From IMG/VR virus record IMGVR_UViG_3300032309_001493, positions 1 through 33,257 of that record: 33,257 nt of DNA; one strand, written 5' to 3'. Positions 776 to 28,775 of this stretch are shown here, piece by piece. The stretch comes from a virus. The notes under the pieces are model-generated. The model was not told where the DNA came from. It did no database searches and worked only from the letters and a program-made list of their open reading frames with translations. A program made the position numbers and the translations under genes. Position 1 is the stretch's first letter, and each line of letters begins with the position of its first letter.

Positions 776-792
776 TGTCTGTTAACAAAATT

Positions 793-813
793 TTAACGAA
801 TTGATGCTACGAT
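793..813 (+). promoter_or_regulatory. Degenerate copy of the early promoter-like element
   Basis: TTAAC (793-797), ten bases, then TACGAT (808-813). This has exactly the spacing of the six elements found between the early genes, though the second box matches them less well. No hairpin and no gene follow directly, so it is the least certain member of the set. Confidence 0.3.
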
Positions 814-1027
814 GTTAGGTGACGACGCATGGCCATCGGGTATTCTCGAAAGCGCATTTAACATAATAAAGATTATCGGACGTTCAGGCTGATTCGTTCG
901 AGTGTTTTTCGACGGGTGATGTTGCGTTAATGTTTTGTTAACCATAAAGATAATTTTGACTTTTTGTTAATTCCGTGAGAGACTGTGAAAAAAACCTAAA
1001 TTTAGAATTGTCAAGCTTTGGTGCATA

Positions 1028-1049
1028 TTTTTACGATGTTTTTACGATG
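1028..1049. repeat. Direct tandem repeat of 11 bases
   Basis: TTTTTACGATG occurs twice back to back (1028-1038 and 1039-1049). A cluster of GGCAA words follows at about 1078-1113 (four copies, irregular spacing). These could be iteron-like binding sites; no function can be assigned from sequence alone. Confidence 0.5.
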
Positions 1050-1333
1050 TGTTTGTTGTCTATGGTTAACAAATTAAGGCAAAATAAGGCAAATTTTAGG
1101 CAATTGTGGCAAAAAACCAAAAACTCACTAAAAATATTTTTTTCCACGGCGGTTTAAATTGCAGCAAAAAATCATCGTCTTTTTAAGTTTCTTACTTTAT
1201 CGATTGCATCTTATCAACAACTCAAACATTCCCTCTAAACCTTTTATCAAGCCATTTAACTCATCGATAAGAATTTTCTTAACAATATATAAGAGAGGAA
1301 TAAAAAATGTCTATAAGAATCCCTTTTTTCAGC

Positions 1334-1362
1334 TTGACAAGTCATAACTTTCCCTTTACGGT
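1334..1362 (+). promoter_or_regulatory. Candidate sigma-70-type early promoter
   Basis: A perfect TTGACA (1334-1339) is followed after 17 bases by TACGGT (1357-1362), about 55 bases before the first early gene. The -35 box lies in the word GCTTGACAAGTC, which recurs exactly at the promoter near 11604. The -10 box matches only three of six bases, so initiation may need an activator or be weak. Confidence 0.45.
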
Positions 1363-1415
1363 TCTCTTACGGCGAATCAACCCGTCGTAAACACTCGTTA
1401 ACGAAAGGCAATCGA

Positions 1416-2084
1416 ATGTTTCAGGCTAAGCAGATTGACGTTTCACGCGTTCGTGATCTTTATAAATTGTCACCTGACGGATTGCTTGCGAATCATGACG
1501 GCACAATCGCGCACACGATTAAAAGGGGCATTCAATTAACCGTTCCACTCGCAAACGGTGAATTGATATCTTTGCGCCGTGCAATCTGGGCATGCGCTTA
1601 TGATTCACTTCCTGAAAAGATTCACAAAAAGCGAATTTCGGATATTGAACGCTTAGATAACCTAACCGACAAGCCTTTAAACCGTCGCAGGCAATATCAA
1701 GCGCGCGTAATGGTAAACGGTCGATCAACTAGTCTAGGTTATCACGCGACGCAAAGGGAACGTGACGAAGCGATTGAAGAATATGAGAAACACGGCGAAA
1801 CGTTGCTGATTAAAGCAGTGCAAAACGAATTCAAAGTCATTCGTCACGTCGGCACAAGAATGACGTCGCTAGGCATTTATCCTACTCGAGACGATGCGGA
1901 GCAAGTCGTTCGTGGTCGCTACAAATACGGCCTGAGAGTACCGGGATTCGCTTATTCCAGCGTCACTGGCGAGCGCAGAGCGGTCGGTATGTTTCGCGAT
2001 GCATTCGAAGCTAAAAACGCCGTTAATCGCTGGATTATCATAGAAGGCTTTTTGCTGGGGTTTGATCAATTCGAGAAAATTTGA
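1416..2084 (+). CDS. AP2/HNH-like DNA-binding protein with degenerate HNH core
   Basis: This 222-residue protein heads the early cluster; its start is supported by GAAAGG eight bases upstream. Residues about 15-80 follow the layout of phage HNH endonucleases (a start like LYKLSPDGLLANHDG, then SLRRAIWACAYDSLPEKIH and ISDIERLDNLTD, where active members read H-R-L-x-W, D-H-I-N-G-D and D-N-R-x-x-N-L). The catalytic histidines are absent. Three AP2-like segments follow, each with a basic beta-strand patch and a helix, of the form QARVMVNGRSTSLGYHATQ and TRMTSLGIYPTRDDAEQVV. I infer a protein that binds DNA but no longer cuts, possibly a regulator of the nearby repeated elements. Family placement is by pattern only. 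Confidence 0.5.
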   Translation: MFQAKQIDVSRVRDLYKLSPDGLLANHDGTIAHTIKRGIQLTVPLANGELISLRRAIWACAYDSLPEKIHKKRISDIERLDNLTDKPLNRRRQYQARVMVNGRSTSLGYHATQRERDEAIEEYEKHGETLLIKAVQNEFKVIRHVGTRMTSLGIYPTRDDAEQVVRGRYKYGLRVPGFAYSSVTGERRAVGMFRDAFEAKNAVNRWIIIEGFLLGFDQFEKI

Positions 2085-2103
2085 ATTACCCGTTTACCCT
2101 TCG

Positions 2104-2134
2104 TTAAGGACTGGCTGCTATTCTACAATCATAG
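2104..2134 (+). promoter_or_regulatory. Early promoter-like element, copy 1 (no hairpin)
   Basis: TTAAG (2104-2108), ten bases, then TATTCT (2119-2124) and ACAATCATAG. It shares spacing and -10-like box with the copies at 2389, 2810, 3165, 3492 and 3910. No hairpin follows. The next gene starts at 2159 after AAGGGAG. Confidence 0.45.
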
Positions 2135-2158
2135 AGACAACAAAGGGAGTTAACGAAA

Positions 2159-2380
2159 ATGGAAACGCTTCAAAATCTTTATTACGAATTGCGAATCAAA
2201 ACCGTCGGCATCCGCACAAAAATCTGGTACATTTTAAATTATCGCACCCTTCGTGCCAGTCGTCAAAACTACGCTAATTTCAATGCCGTTTGCGATGCTT
2301 ACGATGCATTATGCGAAAAGCAAGGGATTAAACCAAAAACTTTCAAAGCCTTCGGGTGGACAAGATATTATCCCGAATAA
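2159..2380 (+). CDS. Small hypothetical protein
   Basis: This 73-residue basic protein is not recognised. It contains a long helical, arginine- and tyrosine-rich segment (RTKIWYILNYRTLRASRQ) and ends KAFGWTRYYPE. The start is supported by AAAGGGAG at about 2142-2149. It is preceded and followed by promoter-like elements, so it may be expressed as a single-gene unit. Small basic early phage proteins often bind a host protein or DNA, but nothing in this sequence decides that. Confidence 0.65.
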   Translation: METLQNLYYELRIKTVGIRTKIWYILNYRTLRASRQNYANFNAVCDAYDALCEKQGIKPKTFKAFGWTRYYPE

Positions 2381-2388
2381 ACACTAAA

Positions 2389-2435
2389 TTAACCTTTATC
2401 GCTTAATCTAAAATCATGGGGCGAGCAATCGCCCC
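2389..2435 (+). promoter_or_regulatory. Early promoter-like element with 5' hairpin, copy 2
   Basis: TTAAC (2389-2393), ten bases, TAATCT (2404-2409), then a hairpin: GGGGCGA (2418-2424), loop GCAA, TCGCCCC (2429-2435). GCAA is a GNRA tetraloop, unusually stable in RNA. If TAATCT is the -10 box, the transcript would begin about at the hairpin. The next gene starts 21 bases later with its own AAGGGA. Confidence 0.55.
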
Positions 2436-2456
2436 GTTAACCAAGGGAATAAGACA

Positions 2457-2801
2457 ATGACAATCGCAGTTAATAGAGACTTCAAAGCCTATCAAGGCAA
2501 GAATCAGGAAAATCTGGTATTCGCTCTAATCGGCATGTTTCGTGGGCGGATGCATGAAACGACGCCCGTATTCATGACATACAAACAAGCGCAGGAATTA
2601 GGTGGCCAGGTGCGCAAAGGCGAAAAAGGCCATTTAATCGGATATTACGGTACTGCCGAAAAAACCGACAAACAAGGCAACGTTTACACCGACAAACACC
2701 GTAAAAGCTATCGTGTTTTTAACGTGTCGCAGATTGACGGATTGCCAGAGCAATTTTACTTCAAGATTGATCTAACCGTCGATAACGCCGACGCAGCGTA
2801 A
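2457..2801 (+). CDS. ArdC-type N-terminal ssDNA-binding domain protein
   Basis: The 114 residues match the N-terminal domain of ArdC-type antirestriction proteins (DUF1738). The recognisable run is MTYKQAQELGGQVRKGEKG near residues 41-59, followed by a strand pair and YRVFNVSQIDGLPE near residues 89-102. In ArdC this domain binds single-stranded DNA and is followed by a zinc metalloprotease domain. Here the protein stops after the first domain and no HExxH motif is present. The natural length of the stand-alone domain and a good AAGGGA site argue for a complete gene rather than a fragment. Possible role: protecting entering DNA from host restriction, or DNA processing early in infection. Confidence 0.75.
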   Translation: MTIAVNRDFKAYQGKNQENLVFALIGMFRGRMHETTPVFMTYKQAQELGGQVRKGEKGHLIGYYGTAEKTDKQGNVYTDKHRKSYRVFNVSQIDGLPEQFYFKIDLTVDNADAA

Positions 2802-2809
2802 ACACTAAA

Positions 2810-2860
2810 TTAACCTTTACCGCGTATTCTAAAATCATGGGGAGGCGATCAAGCCTTCCC
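2810..2860 (+). promoter_or_regulatory. Early promoter-like element with 5' hairpin, copy 3
   Basis: TTAAC (2810-2814), ten bases, TATTCT (2825-2830), then GGGGAGGC (2839-2846), loop GATCAA, GCCTTCCC (2853-2860), an 8-pair stem with one G-T pair. The lead-in AACACTAAATTAACCTTTA is identical to that of copy 2, so these two units are closely related duplicates. GGGGG before the ATG at 2880 is the ribosome site. Confidence 0.55.
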
Positions 2861-2879
2861 GCAACATGGGGGTTTAACA

Positions 2880-3161
2880 ATGGTTGACTTAGTTTATGGC
2901 GACAACGGAATTTTTACTTGGTTTTTACCAGAATCCGTTGACGGTGAAAATGCATGGCGGCAGATTGCCGTTGCGTATGAAAAAACAGACGAAAATATGC
3001 GCCCTAGAGCTGGCAGCGTTTACACCGCGCATTTACCGGGATTGTTGCGCAAGCTGCGCAAAGCGGGCTACGTCGTCAAAAAATCGCCCAAGATCAAAGG
3101 CAAAGTGATCGATCATCTAACGGCCGAGGACTTAGCGCTTTTAGATCAACTTGGTAACTGA
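2880..3161 (+). CDS. Small hypothetical protein
   Basis: This 93-residue protein is not recognised. It is basic in its second half (LLRKLRKAGYVVKKSPKIKGK), and ends with an acidic helix (TAEDLALLDQLGN). The layout, a mixed N-terminal part, a basic linker and a short C-terminal helix, would suit a nucleic-acid-binding accessory factor, but that is a guess. It is transcribed from its own element (2810) and followed by the next element (3165). Confidence 0.65.
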   Translation: MVDLVYGDNGIFTWFLPESVDGENAWRQIAVAYEKTDENMRPRAGSVYTAHLPGLLRKLRKAGYVVKKSPKIKGKVIDHLTAEDLALLDQLGN

Positions 3162-3164
3162 AAA

Positions 3165-3213
3165 TTAACCTTTACCCACTATCCTACAAATAGGGCAGTT
3201 ATGGTGACTGCCC
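3165..3213 (+). promoter_or_regulatory. Early promoter-like element with 5' hairpin, copy 4
   Basis: TTAAC (3165-3169), ten bases, TATCCT (3180-3185), then GGGCAGT (3193-3199), loop of 7, ACTGCCC (3207-3213). It begins right after the stop of the previous gene. It is almost identical to copy 5 at 3492, including the sequence between hairpin and ATG. Confidence 0.55.
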
Positions 3214-3233
3214 AAAACAATCAAGGGCACAAA

Positions 3234-3491
3234 ATGAAAAAAGTATTTTTTAACATCGTAGTCAATCCGATGATCGTTGATAGTGACGGTCGTTGCTCTA
3301 TCGTTGTGGGTTTACCGATTGCGCGATTCATTCATGATAATCATGCAACGCTGCAAGAAAAAGTGAATGAGGTTTACAACGAATTACGGGCAGAAGGTAA
3401 AGAAAATTTTGAAATTTACGCCTATCAAAGCAATGGCCGCAAAGTTAGAAATTTCAACCCTATTACAAAACGCTTTAAAGGCAACCCTTAA
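3234..3491 (+). CDS. Small hypothetical protein
   Basis: The likely start is ATG 3234, since CAAGGG lies seven bases upstream and the in-frame ATG at 3201 falls in the hairpin loop. The 85-residue product (MKKVFFNIVVNPMIVDSDG...) begins with a beta-strand, has an amphipathic helix (ATLQEKVNEVYNELRAEGK) and ends in a basic tail (RKVRNFNPITKRFKGNP). I do not recognise the family. Alternating strand-helix-strand suggests a small folded alpha/beta domain. Confidence 0.65.
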   Translation: MKKVFFNIVVNPMIVDSDGRCSIVVGLPIARFIHDNHATLQEKVNEVYNELRAEGKENFEIYAYQSNGRKVRNFNPITKRFKGNP

Positions 3492-3549
3492 TTAACCTTT
3501 ACCCACTATTCTACAAATAGGGCAGTAATCAAGCTGCCCAAAACAATCA
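3492..3549 (+). promoter_or_regulatory. Early promoter-like element with 5' hairpin, copy 5
   Basis: TTAAC (3492-3496), ten bases, TATTCT (3507-3512), then GGGCAG (3530-3535), loop of 8, CTGCCC (3544-3549). It overlaps the last base of the previous stop codon. The element, hairpin stem and the following spacer with its GGGCACAAAATGA start are nearly the same as in copy 4. Confidence 0.55.
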
Positions 3550-3559
3550 GGGGCACAAA

Positions 3560-3721
3560 ATGACAATCGCACCAAACGAAACACAAGAGCAATACGATCG
3601 TAAAAACGAATTGTTTAAAATTCGTGAACAACGCGAATTAACAATGTTAGAATTATACGAATTGCGGGACTTGACGCGCATTGCAACAGAACACTTATTT
3701 GTTATCGGGAAGGGAGTTTAA
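3560..3721 (+). CDS. Small helical hypothetical protein
   Basis: A 53-codon gene starting MTIAPNETQEQYDRKNELF and ending TEHLFVIGKGV. It is strongly helical and charged (about half its residues are D, E, K, R or Q), suggesting a coiled-coil or helical hairpin. The start is supported by AGGGG eight bases upstream and by the conserved spacing seen before gene 3234. Its stop TAA is one base before the ATG of the next gene, so the two are probably translated together. No family is recognised. Confidence 0.6.
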   Translation: MTIAPNETQEQYDRKNELFKIREQRELTMLELYELRDLTRIATEHLFVIGKGV

Positions 3722-3722
3722 C

Positions 3723-3902
3723 ATGCGCCAGTTTGATCTATCTTACAGCACGCAAGGCGGACGCCTTACGTTCAAAGCGCTTAATGAGAACGGCGAGCGT
3801 GCGCTTTGGGAGGTTATCAGCCTTATGCAGGAGTCGGATACCTTAGAGAGCGTGCTACTGACGCTCAAACGCAAGGGATTCACCGTTCGCAAAGCTCGTT
3901 AA
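3723..3902 (+). CDS. Small hypothetical protein
   Basis: ATG 3723 is chosen because GAAGGGAG ends seven bases before it; an upstream in-frame ATG at 3681 has no such site. The 59-residue product (MRQFDLSYSTQGGRLTFKAL...) shows an N-terminal beta-hairpin, a central helix (GERALWEVISLMQE) and a basic C-terminal strand (LKRKGFTVRKAR). The compact beta-alpha-beta layout resembles many small phage proteins of unknown function. Confidence 0.65.
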   Translation: MRQFDLSYSTQGGRLTFKALNENGERALWEVISLMQESDTLESVLLTLKRKGFTVRKAR

Positions 3903-3909
3903 TCATTCT

Positions 3910-3930
3910 TTAACTTTTTGCTGCTATCTT
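3910..3930 (+). promoter_or_regulatory. Early promoter-like element, copy 6 (no hairpin)
   Basis: TTAAC (3910-3914), ten bases, TATCTT (3925-3930). The word GCTGCTATCTT resembles GCTGCTATTCT of copy 1, so these two hairpin-free copies form a subtype. GGAGG at 3949-3953 serves the next gene. Confidence 0.45.
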
Positions 3931-9191: not shown

Positions 9192-9232
9192 AAAAACCCC
9201 TTGTGTGTACCCCATGCACACAAGGGGTTTTT
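9192..9232. terminator. Bidirectional terminator between convergent genes
   Basis: A perfect 16-pair stem: AAAAACCCCTTGTGTG (9192-9207), a 9-base loop, CACACAAGGGGTTTTT (9217-9232). Flanking A and T runs make it work in both directions. It ends two bases before the stop of the leftward primase gene and blocks rightward read-through. Confidence 0.9.
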
Positions 9233-11605: not shown

Positions 11606-11635
11606 TTGACAAGTCTACACGAAACGTGCTAGAAA
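11606..11635 (+). promoter_or_regulatory. Rightward promoter in the divergent primase/replication gap
   Basis: TTGACA (11606-11611) is followed after 18 bases by TAGAAA (11630-11635). It lies 29 bases before GTG 11664. The -35 box lies in GCTTGACAAGTC, the same 12 bases found at the early promoter near 1332. The inner CTTGACAAG is an odd-length near-palindrome and might be a shared operator. Both diverging genes use an AAGGGAGACA ribosome site, which forms an inverted repeat around the promoter. Confidence 0.5.
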
Positions 11636-12292: not shown

Positions 12293-12570
12293 GTGACTAC
12301 GCTATCTATTACGATGTGGCGTATGCCAACGAGATGGTGCAGCAAACGAGTGGTCTAAAGCAAGAACTTGAGATCACCAAGAACCAGCTTGAAGCAACAC
12401 GACATAGGCTTGAGGATCAAGTTAAGGTGACTGCTGAACTCCGTCGCCAGTATGAACAATTAGATGGGGACTACCAGCGACAATACGATAGAACGAACCA
12501 AGTCATTAACGAAAACGCCGTGCTACGCCAGCAACTTCAACAAGTTAGAGATGAAAGGCTGATTAAATGA
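12289..12570 (+). CDS. Coiled-coil protein
   Basis: The 93 residues are dominated by a long coiled coil from about 20 to 90 (LKQELEITKNQLEATRHRLE..., LRRQYEQLDGDYQRQYDRTN...). The start overlaps the previous gene by ATGA and the end overlaps the DUF2800 gene by ATGA. Such a protein could be a structural or dimerisation partner in the recombination complex. No specific family is recognised. Confidence 0.65.
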   Translation: MSDYAIYYDVAYANEMVQQTSGLKQELEITKNQLEATRHRLEDQVKVTAELRRQYEQLDGDYQRQYDRTNQVINENAVLRQQLQQVRDERLIK

Positions 12571-13322
12571 GTAGCGAACCAGCACACTCACGCTTCTCAC
12601 CCAGCAGTCGGGAACGATGGAGCGAATGTCCTGCGTCGATCCATATGCAAGAGGACTATGAGAACGTAACGAGCCCAGCAGCAGAACAAGGCACGCGAGT
12701 GCACGTCCTATTACATCATTTACTTACGGATAAACCCTTACCAGACAAGGTAGACCGTGAAGAGCTAGCGCGTGCTCAGTACGCGTTTGAATTAGTCATG
12801 GGCTTGATAAAATCGCACTTGTATCGAGGAACCAGTGTTAAGTTACACACCGAAGAAAAGGTTCACCTTAATGATAATCCTGAACTTCGAGGAACCCTCG
12901 ATATTGCAATCCTGGTCGAAAAAAGAACCGAATGGGCGTCTAAGTTGATTACCGACGTTTACGTCATTGATTACAAAGACGGTAACGTACCAGTGCAGGT
13001 AACTGATAACAAACAGGTTGAGTACTATGCAGCAGCGTTCGTAAATGAATTGGAAGGATACCACGAGATAGATAGAGACAATACAAAGTTTCACATTGGT
13101 ATCATCCAACCCCGTGTGGCAGAAGGTATCCAGTGGGACAAAGTTAGATATTACTGGCACCTAGCTGCTGTTAGAACCAACATCGAGGAAGAGGTAGACA
13201 TCTGCGAGACACGACCATTTACCAAAGCGGGTGAATGGTGCAAGTACTGCCTTGCATCGGGTGCTTGTAAGGCCAACGCTGAACGACTTATGGAATTGGT
13301 AGGAGTGGACATCAATGTTTGA
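12567..13322 (+). CDS. DUF2800 protein, N-terminal (RecB-like nuclease) part
   Basis: The 251 residues match the first two-thirds of DUF2800 proteins, which resemble RecB/Cas4-type PD-(D/E)XK nucleases with an iron-sulfur cluster. Seen are SPSSRERWSECPASIHM near 12-28 (first Cys), EQGTRVHVLLHHLL, the core strand VYVIDYKDGNVPVQVTDNKQ near 131-150 (D-x-K signature followed by Q-EYY), and the C-terminal CKYCLASGACKA with the remaining three cysteines. In other phages the same polypeptide continues with the part found here in the next gene. Neighbours (DUF2815, polymerase, VRR-NUC, helicase) form a common phage recombination/replication set. Confidence 0.8.
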   Translation: MSSEPAHSRFSPSSRERWSECPASIHMQEDYENVTSPAAEQGTRVHVLLHHLLTDKPLPDKVDREELARAQYAFELVMGLIKSHLYRGTSVKLHTEEKVHLNDNPELRGTLDIAILVEKRTEWASKLITDVYVIDYKDGNVPVQVTDNKQVEYYAAAFVNELEGYHEIDRDNTKFHIGIIQPRVAEGIQWDKVRYYWHLAAVRTNIEEEVDICETRPFTKAGEWCKYCLASGACKANAERLMELVGVDINV

Positions 13323-13788
13323 CAAGGAAGCACACACGCTATCTGACGCGCAGATAGCGAAGATTATCCAATACGCGCCAACGATCGAAAAGTTTCTGAA
13401 GAACGTCAAAGCTGAAGTGGTTATGCGTGCTGAACGTGGGCAAACCGTTGAGGGTGTAAAGGTCGTCGATGGTCGTGCAAGTTACGATTGGGCGATCCCT
13501 GAAGACAAATTGCTGAAGGTCTTCAAGAAACTTGGCGTGCCAAAAGAGTGCTGGCATGAGCATGAGGTGCTGTCTCCAAACAAGCTAAAGAACTTGACTT
13601 GGCAGGACAAAGACGGTAATCCAGACGGGCTAACGTCGGAGCAAGTCGAACTTGTTTACCGTGAGTATGTTAAAAAAGTACCCGGTTATCCGACGGTAGT
13701 ACCCAAAAATGACAAGCGGAAACCTAAAGACTTCGCCGCAGCGGGTGAACTAGACAATCTCTTTAAACAAGCAAACAGCAAGGAATAG
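13315..13788 (+). CDS. DUF2800 protein, C-terminal part as a separate gene
   Basis: The 157 residues correspond to the C-terminal part of full-length DUF2800 proteins: a helical start (LSDAQIAKIIQYAPTIEKFL), the segment VEGVKVVDGRASYDWAIPED (usual form: G-W-K-L-V-E-G-R-S-N-R-K-W), the helix LSPNKLKNL, and the end VPGYPTVVPKNDKRK. The gene overlaps the previous one by 8 bases in another frame and has its own AGGAG at a normal distance, so it is translated on its own. A natural gene split is more likely than a sequencing error, because both stop and start signals are well formed. Confidence 0.75.
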   Translation: MFDKEAHTLSDAQIAKIIQYAPTIEKFLKNVKAEVVMRAERGQTVEGVKVVDGRASYDWAIPEDKLLKVFKKLGVPKECWHEHEVLSPNKLKNLTWQDKDGNPDGLTSEQVELVYREYVKKVPGYPTVVPKNDKRKPKDFAAAGELDNLFKQANSKE

Positions 13789-26313: not shown

Positions 26314-27564
26314 TTACAACTCCGCTGAGAATTCAGCACTGGCAGTGATTGATGTGCCGATAGTCCAGTTAGCTGCTGAATTGTACAGCCTTGCACCTTT
26401 TGTTCCTATGTTATTAGACGCAAAAGTACCAGCATTAAAACTACCATTTGTGATAGTAGGTGCTACACGCATTTCCACAGGGTATGTGTATCTTCCTGAT
26501 ATAGCACTGGTAGAAAATGCATCTCCTATATAATCAGAAGTTAATTTGTGGTAATATCGTTGACAATTAATTAAATTAGCAGCATACGGGATATTTTCAT
26601 ATCTAGTAGCAATCGATCCTTCCTCTAATTGAAAACCCCAATAATAAGTAGGAAACGCACTTGCACCATTCTCAGTTGTTGTTTGAATTTTTACATACAA
26701 ATGGTCATCACCATTTGTCCCAACGGTACCAAAAGCATATTGAAGTGAAAACGTTATACTTGCTCTAACGGCAGCATAAGACGACAGGGTAATATTACCA
26801 GTATGGGTTACTGGGGCAGATGGAGATCCACCTGTGCCATAATTCTGAATTATGGAAACAGCACAAGTTCTTGGTATCGCGCCAGAATAATAATAAAAAG
26901 ACAATGTTACTGTTTTACCACTTAAAGTTTGAACACCCTCTATTCGAGTGCCTAGTTCATAAGTTATATAGTTATAATAATCACTGTTATAAATTCTAAT
27001 CGCATACTCATTGCCATTCTGTGCGTTCCAAGTTTGACTTGAAACAGCATAGCGAGAAGCTTCAACGCTACCAGTTCCCGAGACCAATTTACAAACCCAA
27101 CGGTCGGCTGTATAACCGTATACTCCTGCGGTCCCTAAACTAAAACTAGTACCTCTTTGCCATACATCAAAATTACTATTTATTATATAATTCCTATTAG
27201 AAAAATTATCAATTCCTAATATTGATTTTTGGGCAGGAACATCTGCCGCAGAAATTAGAGCGTTTCCTGCTACTGTCGGTTTAGCGATAGTGGTAATTTG
27301 GTCAATAGTTTTAATTGTTACATCTGCTGAATTTCTTATTAAAAATTTATAAGACCTATCAGTATATAAATAAACTAATGCTTCACCATTAGAATCAAGT
27401 ATGATTGGGTTAGTGTTAATAACCGTCGTGTAAGGATCTTGGAAAGTTGCTGCTAGTGTCGTTGTCCCAGCTAAGTAAGTATATATCTTACCCCCTGCAA
27501 GAGGATTATTATTATTATCATAAAACCGAAGAATTGGGTACGGAACATAATTAGCATAGGCCAT
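26314..27564 (-). CDS. Tail fibre / receptor-binding protein with head-binding N-terminus
   Basis: The 416-residue product begins with a typical virion-attachment domain of podoviral fibres: PYPILRFYDNNNNPLAGGKI near 8-27, TYLAGTTTLAATFQDP, NPIILDSNGEALVYL and SYKFLIRNS. A linker (about 90-115) leads to a carbohydrate-binding-like beta domain: NYIINSNFDVWQRGTSF near 124-140, YTADRWVCKL, QNYGTGGSPSAPV and CQRYYHKL. The C-terminal part is clearly related to that of gene 27612. It ends in SAEL, where the paralogue ends in DAEL. The protein most likely binds the host surface. Confidence 0.75.
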   Translation of the reverse strand: MAYANYVPYPILRFYDNNNNPLAGGKIYTYLAGTTTLAATFQDPYTTVINTNPIILDSNGEALVYLYTDRSYKFLIRNSADVTIKTIDQITTIAKPTVAGNALISAADVPAQKSILGIDNFSNRNYIINSNFDVWQRGTSFSLGTAGVYGYTADRWVCKLVSGTGSVEASRYAVSSQTWNAQNGNEYAIRIYNSDYYNYITYELGTRIEGVQTLSGKTVTLSFYYYSGAIPRTCAVSIIQNYGTGGSPSAPVTHTGNITLSSYAAVRASITFSLQYAFGTVGTNGDDHLYVKIQTTTENGASAFPTYYWGFQLEEGSIATRYENIPYAANLINCQRYYHKLTSDYIGDAFSTSAISGRYTYPVEMRVAPTITNGSFNAGTFASNNIGTKGARLYNSAANWTIGTSITASAEFSAEL

Positions 27565-27611
27565 AGTTCACCCTATCATAAAACCAAACAGGTTCCAATG
27601 ATAAACTATAA

Positions 27612-28775
27612 TCACAATTCTGCGTCTAACGCAAGAAGTGCGTCTGAGGCACCTGCTGACGCTGTTTGTTGACGAATAGAGGAGAAACCGTATGGTGCTC
27701 CTCCAAACGTTGCGCCATTCAAGGAACCAGCTTTAACGGATAGCGTTGGCGCAGCACGCATGGTTGTCGGCAAGCTCGTGTAGGCGTAAGTAGACAATGT
27801 CGTAGGAGTCACTGACACCTCGGTGTAATATCGCTGACACAACGCCAATTCCTCTGCTATGAGGCGGCGAGAAAAGGTTGATGGACTTGTAGCTCCAGCG
27901 GTTGAGTGTTCCAACTGGCAGTCGCTCAACCAATAAGTGCTACTAAAACCAGAAAGAATGTTAATTTTAAAAGAAAGATAACTGTCGTTATTCGTACCAA
28001 AAGTTTTTGCGGTAACGGTTCCAAGTTGAAAAAGAACCGCGTACCTAGCCCAAGCTGATGACGGGGAGGTAAGCGTTGCACTTGTCAGGACAACTGGTGA
28101 AGACGGAGAACCACCTGTCCCGAAATTTTGTGTTAATTCGATGTTAAACGTACAACTACCTGCAAAATAAATTGACGCCATGACGTACTTGCCCTGCAAA
28201 GTAAGTGCGTCTTCGATTCGTTGCTCAAAGGATGCGCTTGTTCCAGATGACATTGAAACAGTTATTGCGTACCGACTGTAGCCACTAGATGGGTCATTTT
28301 TAGCGCTGTATTGTTGAAGAGTGAAACTTCCAGATCCACCAGACGTAAAATTAAACTTCCAGCGATCTGCAAGGTATGTCGAAGAGGAAGCACCCGTATA
28401 ACTAAAAGCCGTAGCACGTTGCCAAATATCAAATGCGCCGTTAATCAGATAATTACGGACGTTATAATTAGTAAGTCCATTAACAGTGTTAGTGAGAGTA
28501 GTAATATTATTGTTAATTGTTGTTAAATTAGAATTTGTTTTATTTGAAAATGAATAAAATTCTTCCTTAGTTGAGTTTGTATCTAGTTGTAAATCAAGGG
28601 TTTTCGAACTGGTAGTTGTAGGTTGTAATTGAAGATCCAACAAACTGACATCATTTTGACCAGATCCTGTCAATGAAGACAAACCAGAGAAAAAACGATA
28701 CCACTCGCGAGTAATGAACCCCCCTTCGTCTAGAACAGGAACTCTTGTTGCTGGAATGATAGACGTATTCGTCAT
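27612..28775 (-). CDS. Second tail fibre / receptor-binding protein (paralogous C-terminus)
   Basis: The 387-residue product has another anchor: a short N-terminal peptide of the form PATRVPVLDEGGFITREWYR, common at the start of phage fibre proteins. A coiled-coil-like linker follows (about 70-100, TTINNNITTLTNTVNGL), then the same receptor-binding-like fold as gene 26314: NYLINGAFDIWQRATAF, LADRWKFNF, QNFGTGGSPSSPV, LCQRYYTEV. Position right after gp10 is where P22 encodes its tail needle; no needle-like protein (gp26) is visible. This protein may therefore plug or cap the tail, or carry adhesion, or both. Confidence 0.72.
   Translation of the reverse strand: MTNTSIIPATRVPVLDEGGFITREWYRFFSGLSSLTGSGQNDVSLLDLQLQPTTTSSKTLDLQLDTNSTKEEFYSFSNKTNSNLTTINNNITTLTNTVNGLTNYNVRNYLINGAFDIWQRATAFSYTGASSSTYLADRWKFNFTSGGSGSFTLQQYSAKNDPSSGYSRYAITVSMSSGTSASFEQRIEDALTLQGKYVMASIYFAGSCTFNIELTQNFGTGGSPSSPVVLTSATLTSPSSAWARYAVLFQLGTVTAKTFGTNNDSYLSFKINILSGFSSTYWLSDCQLEHSTAGATSPSTFSRRLIAEELALCQRYYTEVSVTPTTLSTYAYTSLPTTMRAAPTLSVKAGSLNGATFGGAPYGFSSIRQQTASAGASDALLALDAEL

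Follow-up and report, generated by a model that had tools for sequence, protein, structure and literature searches.

The motif TTAA-N7-TTAA is the CtrA box of Alphaproteobacteria and occupies the -35 position in most CtrA-activated promoters, and some of these boxes have an imperfect distal half such as CTAA or AAAA (PMC11264516). Clustered CtrA boxes at phage promoters are already known, and both CtrA binding and CtrA-dependent expression were demonstrated for promoters of phiCbK (PMC9437464). The stretch of DNA analyzed here, 33,257 bases long and hereafter called the window, contains comparable elements. As in phiCbK-like and other LPEG phages, TTAA-N7-TTAA replaces the -35 element, TAnnnT follows at the same distance, and the boxes are repeated before small early genes and clustered in one region (PMC9437464). 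Hairpins also follow most copies in phiCbK-like phages. In contrast to the phiCbK-like and LPEG phages, the window represents a podovirus lineage with a P22-type coat, and its early cassettes lie behind a divergent gap instead of in terminal repeats.

The PeSL of T4-type phages, as summarized in PMC4503421 and PMC3950731 (Arbiol 2010; Comeau 2014), consist of a promoter plus a stem-loop between variable small genes, and there too such repeats are associated with the shuffling of these genes. However, if compared to the PeSL as outlined in these summaries, the window elements lack a sigma-70 -35 at the usual distance, and their stem-loop has no U tract, is not terminator-like and sits between promoter and gene start; moreover, the phage is not of the T4 type. 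In one part of its genome, the archaeal virus HGTV-1 likewise has a promoter-like motif and an inverted repeat ahead of most ORFs (PMC3950731), but its promoter is archaeal (TATA-box-like) and comprises no CtrA box. In the middle promoters of T4, a regulator box also replaces the -35 before a host-type -10; it is a single box centred at -30, 12 ± 1 bp from the -10, and MotA is a phage-coded activator (PMC2988021), whereas the window elements show a direct repeat with the proximal TTAAC 10 nt from the -10 and not TGCTT at 12. Finally, the stabilizing 5'-terminal stem-loops of ompA and papA (PMC3997798) resemble the window hairpins in being stable, in lying at the inferred 5' end and in leaving the ribosome-binding site unpaired, but the window hairpin is part of a mobile phage cassette.

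The window is a 33-kb, incomplete IMG/VR record of a podovirus which encodes P22-type coat and head-closure proteins, a phage DNA polymerase, a primase-helicase and a SNF2-type helicase, with the small terminase gene at its left edge on the minus strand. Its kin in IMG/VR are three: G001 (38.9 kb), which shares many blocks of about 90% nucleotide identity with the window, G002 (26.3 kb), and G004 (40.9 kb), which mostly shows 67–76%. Among named records, DSL-LC05 and MW202483 come closest, but they are distant (43–59% amino acid identity for polymerase, coat and head-closure proteins). Judged by sequence, the elements are probably, with a likelihood of roughly 70%, CtrA-type promoters packed as cassettes and putatively read by the CtrA of the host. 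Element copies from the four genomes fall into six sequence classes, A to F, which are otherwise little alike. The features of the window are:

782..813, + strand: class D element, TTAAC-N6-TTAAC-N10-TACGAT, conserved in the four genomes and present twice in G002; missed in the first-pass annotation
927..941, + strand: exact TTAA-N7-TTAA box lacking a -10 at the usual distance; shared with G001 and G002
1334..1362, + strand: canonical sigma-70-type promoter of gene 1416, TTGACA-N17-TACGGT, its TTGACA conserved in the four genomes
1416..2084, + strand: gene 1416, the constant first early gene, with HNH-like and AP2-like parts and no invariant histidine; rival candidate for the regulator
2104..2124, + strand: first copy of the first-pass annotation; the -10, TATTCT, is conserved but the TTAA box is not, and a hairpin is absent
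2159..3721, + strand: variable block of small genes 2159, 2457 (ArdC-N-like), 2880, 3234 and 3560, most of them behind an element
2378..2409, + strand: class A element, TAAAC-N6-TTAAC-N10-TAATCT
2418..2435, + strand: hairpin GGGGCGA-GCAA-TCGCCCC at the inferred 5' end
2799..2830, + strand: class A element, TAAAC-N6-TTAAC-N10-TATTCT
2839..2860, + strand: hairpin GGGGAGGC-GATCAA-GCCTTCCC
3154..3185, + strand: class A element, GTAAC-N6-TTAAC-N10-TATCCT
3193..3213, + strand: hairpin GGGCAGT...ACTGCCC
3481..3512, + strand: class A element, GCAAC-N6-TTAAC-N10-TATTCT
3520..3539, + strand: hairpin GGGCAGT-AATCAA-GCTGCCC
3899..3930, + strand: class B element, TTAAT-N6-TTAAC-N10-TATCTT; hairpin absent; orthologous copies across the four genomes

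The first-pass annotation had described six copies of the pattern TTAAS-N10-TAWYYT on the plus strand, and all six are found at 2104, 2389, 2810, 3165, 3492 and 3910, compared to 0.40 matches expected in the whole window. One further, overlapping match lies on the minus strand, and none of 100 shuffles reached seven. The list of members held in part: the copy at 2104 lacks the full motif described below, its box reading TTAGG in G001 and G002 and thus not being conserved, and the element at 782-813 had been overlooked. Likewise, the first box is real, yet it is only one half, the proximal one, of the direct repeat TTAAC-N6-TTAAC. Comparison of the four genomes gave the full layout TTAAC-N6-TTAAC-N10-TAnnnT with an 11-bp direct repeat. 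Allowing two mismatches in the distal TTAA, this motif matches six times in the window, always on the plus strand (proximal TTAAC at 793, 2389, 2810, 3165, 3492 and 3910), and all matches are confined to the early region 782-3930 of the 33,257 bases. Such a concentration of CtrA-type sites agrees with the placement in one region by which LPEG phages are recognized, a second criterion for them being a normalized positional entropy of less than 0.75 under the published matrix. A search of related phage genomes, proposed at the first pass, revealed the full motif in all three relatives: there were 6, 4, 7, and 4 plus-strand and 0, 0, 0, and 1 minus-strand matches in the window, G001, G002 and G004, respectively, compared to 0.3–0.6 in shuffles. 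The same scan of DSL-LC05 and MW202483 yielded no matches.

Across the six classes, 4.25 of the five letters of TTAAC were matched (class-weighted) at offset -11, compared to mostly 1–2 at other offsets, although this test and that of the full motif are partly post hoc because the offset itself came from scanning. Enrichment of TTAAC-N10-TANNNT was restricted to spacing 10 on the plus strand. Repeat, spacing and -10 recur in otherwise dissimilar sequence classes, and the elements look like the promoters that the first-pass annotation had taken them for. No TTGACA-like hexamer (at least 4/6) was found 15–19 nt upstream of the -10, with the exception of CTGAAA (4/6) at the 3165 copy. TTAACC itself was also considered as a -35 paired with a more distant -10, and this was rejected: spacing and letters do not agree with it, and transcription would start within the hairpin. 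An Rfam search gave no match, nor did a search of a genome contig collection for a bacterial or proviral home of the element or of gp1416.

The CtrA box at the -35 position is exact at 782 and 3899, while at 2378, 2799, 3154 and 3481 one half is degenerate. In class A the distal half reads GTAA, GCAA, TAAA or TATA, and part of the likeness within this class is due to descent, because its copies are recent duplicates; the pairs 2389/2810 and 3165/3492, called near duplicates at the first pass, proved to be such by sequence comparison. Degeneracy and descent both count against the CtrA reading. The comparison of spacing with Caulobacter phages is, in contrast, not post hoc. phiCbK shows TTAAC-N10-TAnnnT at 5 of 9 sites, and at 16 of 19 CcrColossus sites TAnnnT lies 11 nt past TTAA, in both cases the same distance as in the window elements. 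In CcrRogue the distance is 11 or 12. The phiCbK gp018 promoter has a distance of 12, one base more, and its gp005 promoter has no TAnnnT at 11–13. Lacusarx counts as CtrA-rich in the literature, yet the two stretches of it that were examined did not show the spaced motif, a further point against CtrA.

Stem-loops had been reported in four copies, and those at 2389, 2810, 3165 and 3492 were confirmed, folding at -13 to -17 kcal/mol (z about -4); their first paired base lies 7–9 nt past the second box, at the presumed 5' end of the mRNA. Among all hairpin copies of the four genomes this distance is 6–9 nt after the -10, where transcripts should begin. Six variants of the stem keep all seven pairs, while the letters change in 6 of 7; these counts stem from a hand table aligned on the stem, as MAFFT misplaced the loops, and are descriptive only. 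In the window no hairpin accompanies the class B element at 3910; the orthologous element of G001 has an unrelated one in that position. Intrinsic termination was considered and rejected for the four window hairpins: none was called terminator-like on the plus strand, and no T run follows. At most sites of phiCbK, CcrRogue and CcrColossus, too, the -10 is followed by a hairpin, although this likeness is weakened by the GC-rich background, in which 6–12% of random positions fold no less stably than the median. Neither the CtrA-phage paper (PMC9437464) nor the phiCbK genome paper mentions a hairpin or stem-loop, and the hairpin would be an added part of CtrA phage promoters which both leave undescribed. 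Protection of the mRNA by the element hairpins is plausible by analogy, given that 5'-terminal stem-loops impede RppH and stabilize some messages (PMC3997798). Elsewhere in the window (9192-9232), convergent genes are separated by a hairpin of 18 pairs with A and T runs on its flanks, likely a two-way terminator.

The suggestion that gene and control unit move as a cassette was corroborated, as one and the same element precedes different genes in the relatives. The four genomes differ in the small genes that lie between element B and the constant gene 1416, most of them standing behind an element, while the window, G001 and G004 share gene 3723, which precedes element B. Window and G002 have the ArdC-N gene, together with the element behind it, at 95% identity over 411 nt, whereas the neighbours differ. 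In G002 (L020) and G004 (L018), the TTAAC box provides the stop codon and a C-terminal YTEN to otherwise different upstream proteins. Canonical promoters exist alongside: the replication operon has TTGACA at 11606, and only a weak hairpin (z -1.4) was found after the promoter of gene 1416. A clamp-like gene with a DNA polymerase III beta domain, part of the variable block in G002 (L020:3284-4021, minus strand) and G004 (L018:9281-10033), has an element plus hairpin upstream in the former and TTGACA-N17-TAAGAT in the latter, and this swap supports a promoter role of the element. The clamp-like gene had no match in the phage collection.

As to the regulator, the first-pass annotation had proposed that the first box binds an activator or repressor, with the products of genes 1416 and 11664 as candidates. 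The box indeed looks like an activator site replacing the -35, but it is half of a CtrA-type 11-bp repeat. No T7-type (single-subunit) RNA polymerase was detected in the four phages (the T7 control was positive), nor a sigma factor, nor an OmpR-type DNA-binding domain or GcrA, while the GcrA of phiCbK was recovered as control; the searches for polymerase, sigma factor and OmpR-type domain all had positive controls. The window record is incomplete, but the lengths of G001 and G004 are close to those of the circular relatives. Thus the regulator is probably the host's, and the lack of a phage protein with an OmpR-type DNA-binding domain makes host CtrA the more likely reader, if compared to the product of gene 1416 or 11664. 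A T3-like promoter, which the letters AATTAACC recall, was rejected because no single-subunit phage polymerase to read it was found.

A direct-repeat promoter of this kind might instead be read by another OmpR/PhoB-family regulator, ArcA-like or PhoP-like, in a gamma- or betaproteobacterial host. Regulators of these types likewise recognize 11-bp direct repeats with similar letters (GTTAAT, GTTTA) ahead of a -10. DSL-LC05, the nearest named relative, is listed with a gammaproteobacterial host, which speaks against CtrA, and relatives by coat protein infect Rhodoferax, Vibrio and Xanthomonas. We nevertheless regard this alternative as unlikely: the conserved fifth letter C as well as the exact layout TTAA-N7-TTAAC and its spacing agree with what is seen at CtrA promoters of Caulobacter phages, and ArdC-N (14 of the best 15 matches are plasmids of Alphaproteobacteria) and the endolysin (its only matches are Agrobacterium phages) point to Alphaproteobacteria. 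GANTC avoidance in the window is only mild and not specific, and as such does not favour CtrA.

Control by phage gp1416, acting as activator or repressor through its three AP2-like DNA-binding repeats, appears quite improbable to us. Its gene is the first early one, has a canonical promoter and is constant in the four genomes; the protein has three strand-strand-helix repeats, and in structure it weakly resembles a plant AP2 domain (Z 5.0 over 67 residues). The degenerate HNH-like part lacks an invariant histidine across the four homologues, so that gp1416 is probably not an HNH nuclease; it is possibly a homing endonuclease turned DNA-binding protein. However, the co-occurrence is based on four related genomes only, and the match of box and spacing to the CtrA promoters of phiCbK and CcrColossus would be left unexplained. 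One could also imagine that the elements have no promoter role and mainly represent joints of recombination or remnants of duplication, as near-identical copies flank exchanged genes. We give this little credence, since repeat, spacing and -10 are kept between classes with little other similarity and the clamp gene trades its element for a canonical promoter.

Returning to CtrA-type promoters, we infer an alphaproteobacterial host whose OmpR/PhoB-class response regulator, most likely CtrA, would bind the direct repeat TTAA-N7-TTAAC at the expected -35 place and activate rather than repress, recruiting host RNA polymerase to the TAnnnT that follows TTAAC after 10 nt. Transcription would begin at, or 1–3 nt before, the hairpin of 6–8 bp, which most likely would shield the triphosphate 5' end from RNA-decay enzymes of the host, with the ribosome-binding site following unpaired. 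Element and gene would be swapped between relatives as one unit, and newly acquired genes would thereby come under the host regulator at once. While CtrA-driven phage promoters as such are known, their presence in this podovirus lineage, their shuffling and their hairpins appear to be unreported. One might speculate, tentatively and with some doubt, that unrelated phages of Alphaproteobacteria arrived independently at, or passed between them, a single plug-in cassette (CtrA box, -10, 5' hairpin and ribosome-binding site) that serves both as a host-cell-cycle switch for early genes and as a joint for gene swapping. If the elements are indeed CtrA-type promoters, control by host CtrA ("lytic deferment") would extend to an unrelated, uncultured podovirus lineage, and the phage may time its cassette genes by the host cell cycle. 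The signature TTAA-N7-TTAAC-N10-TAnnnT plus hairpin could then serve as a metagenome marker for phages of CtrA-bearing hosts and for accessory early genes.

Some further observations were made along the way. Three tandem, iteron-like copies of GGGTATGGTTGAAAA at 555-600 of the window adjoin the AT-rich divergent gap. In DSL-LC05, a different leader, CCCGTAACCGTAAAGGAACC, is repeated before early genes (L016:33480-34750), and many operator-like CCCAGTGGGTCA repeats lie upstream. The exonuclease of the window (12567-13788) consists of two overlapping ORFs on consecutive parts of phrog_69, compared to one ORF in DSL-LC05, and two tandem tail-fibre paralogues of the same family, phrog_4492, are located at 26314-28775. 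Across the whole window, GGNCC and CCGG are strongly avoided (0.22 and 0.31 of expected, respectively), which suggests restriction pressure.
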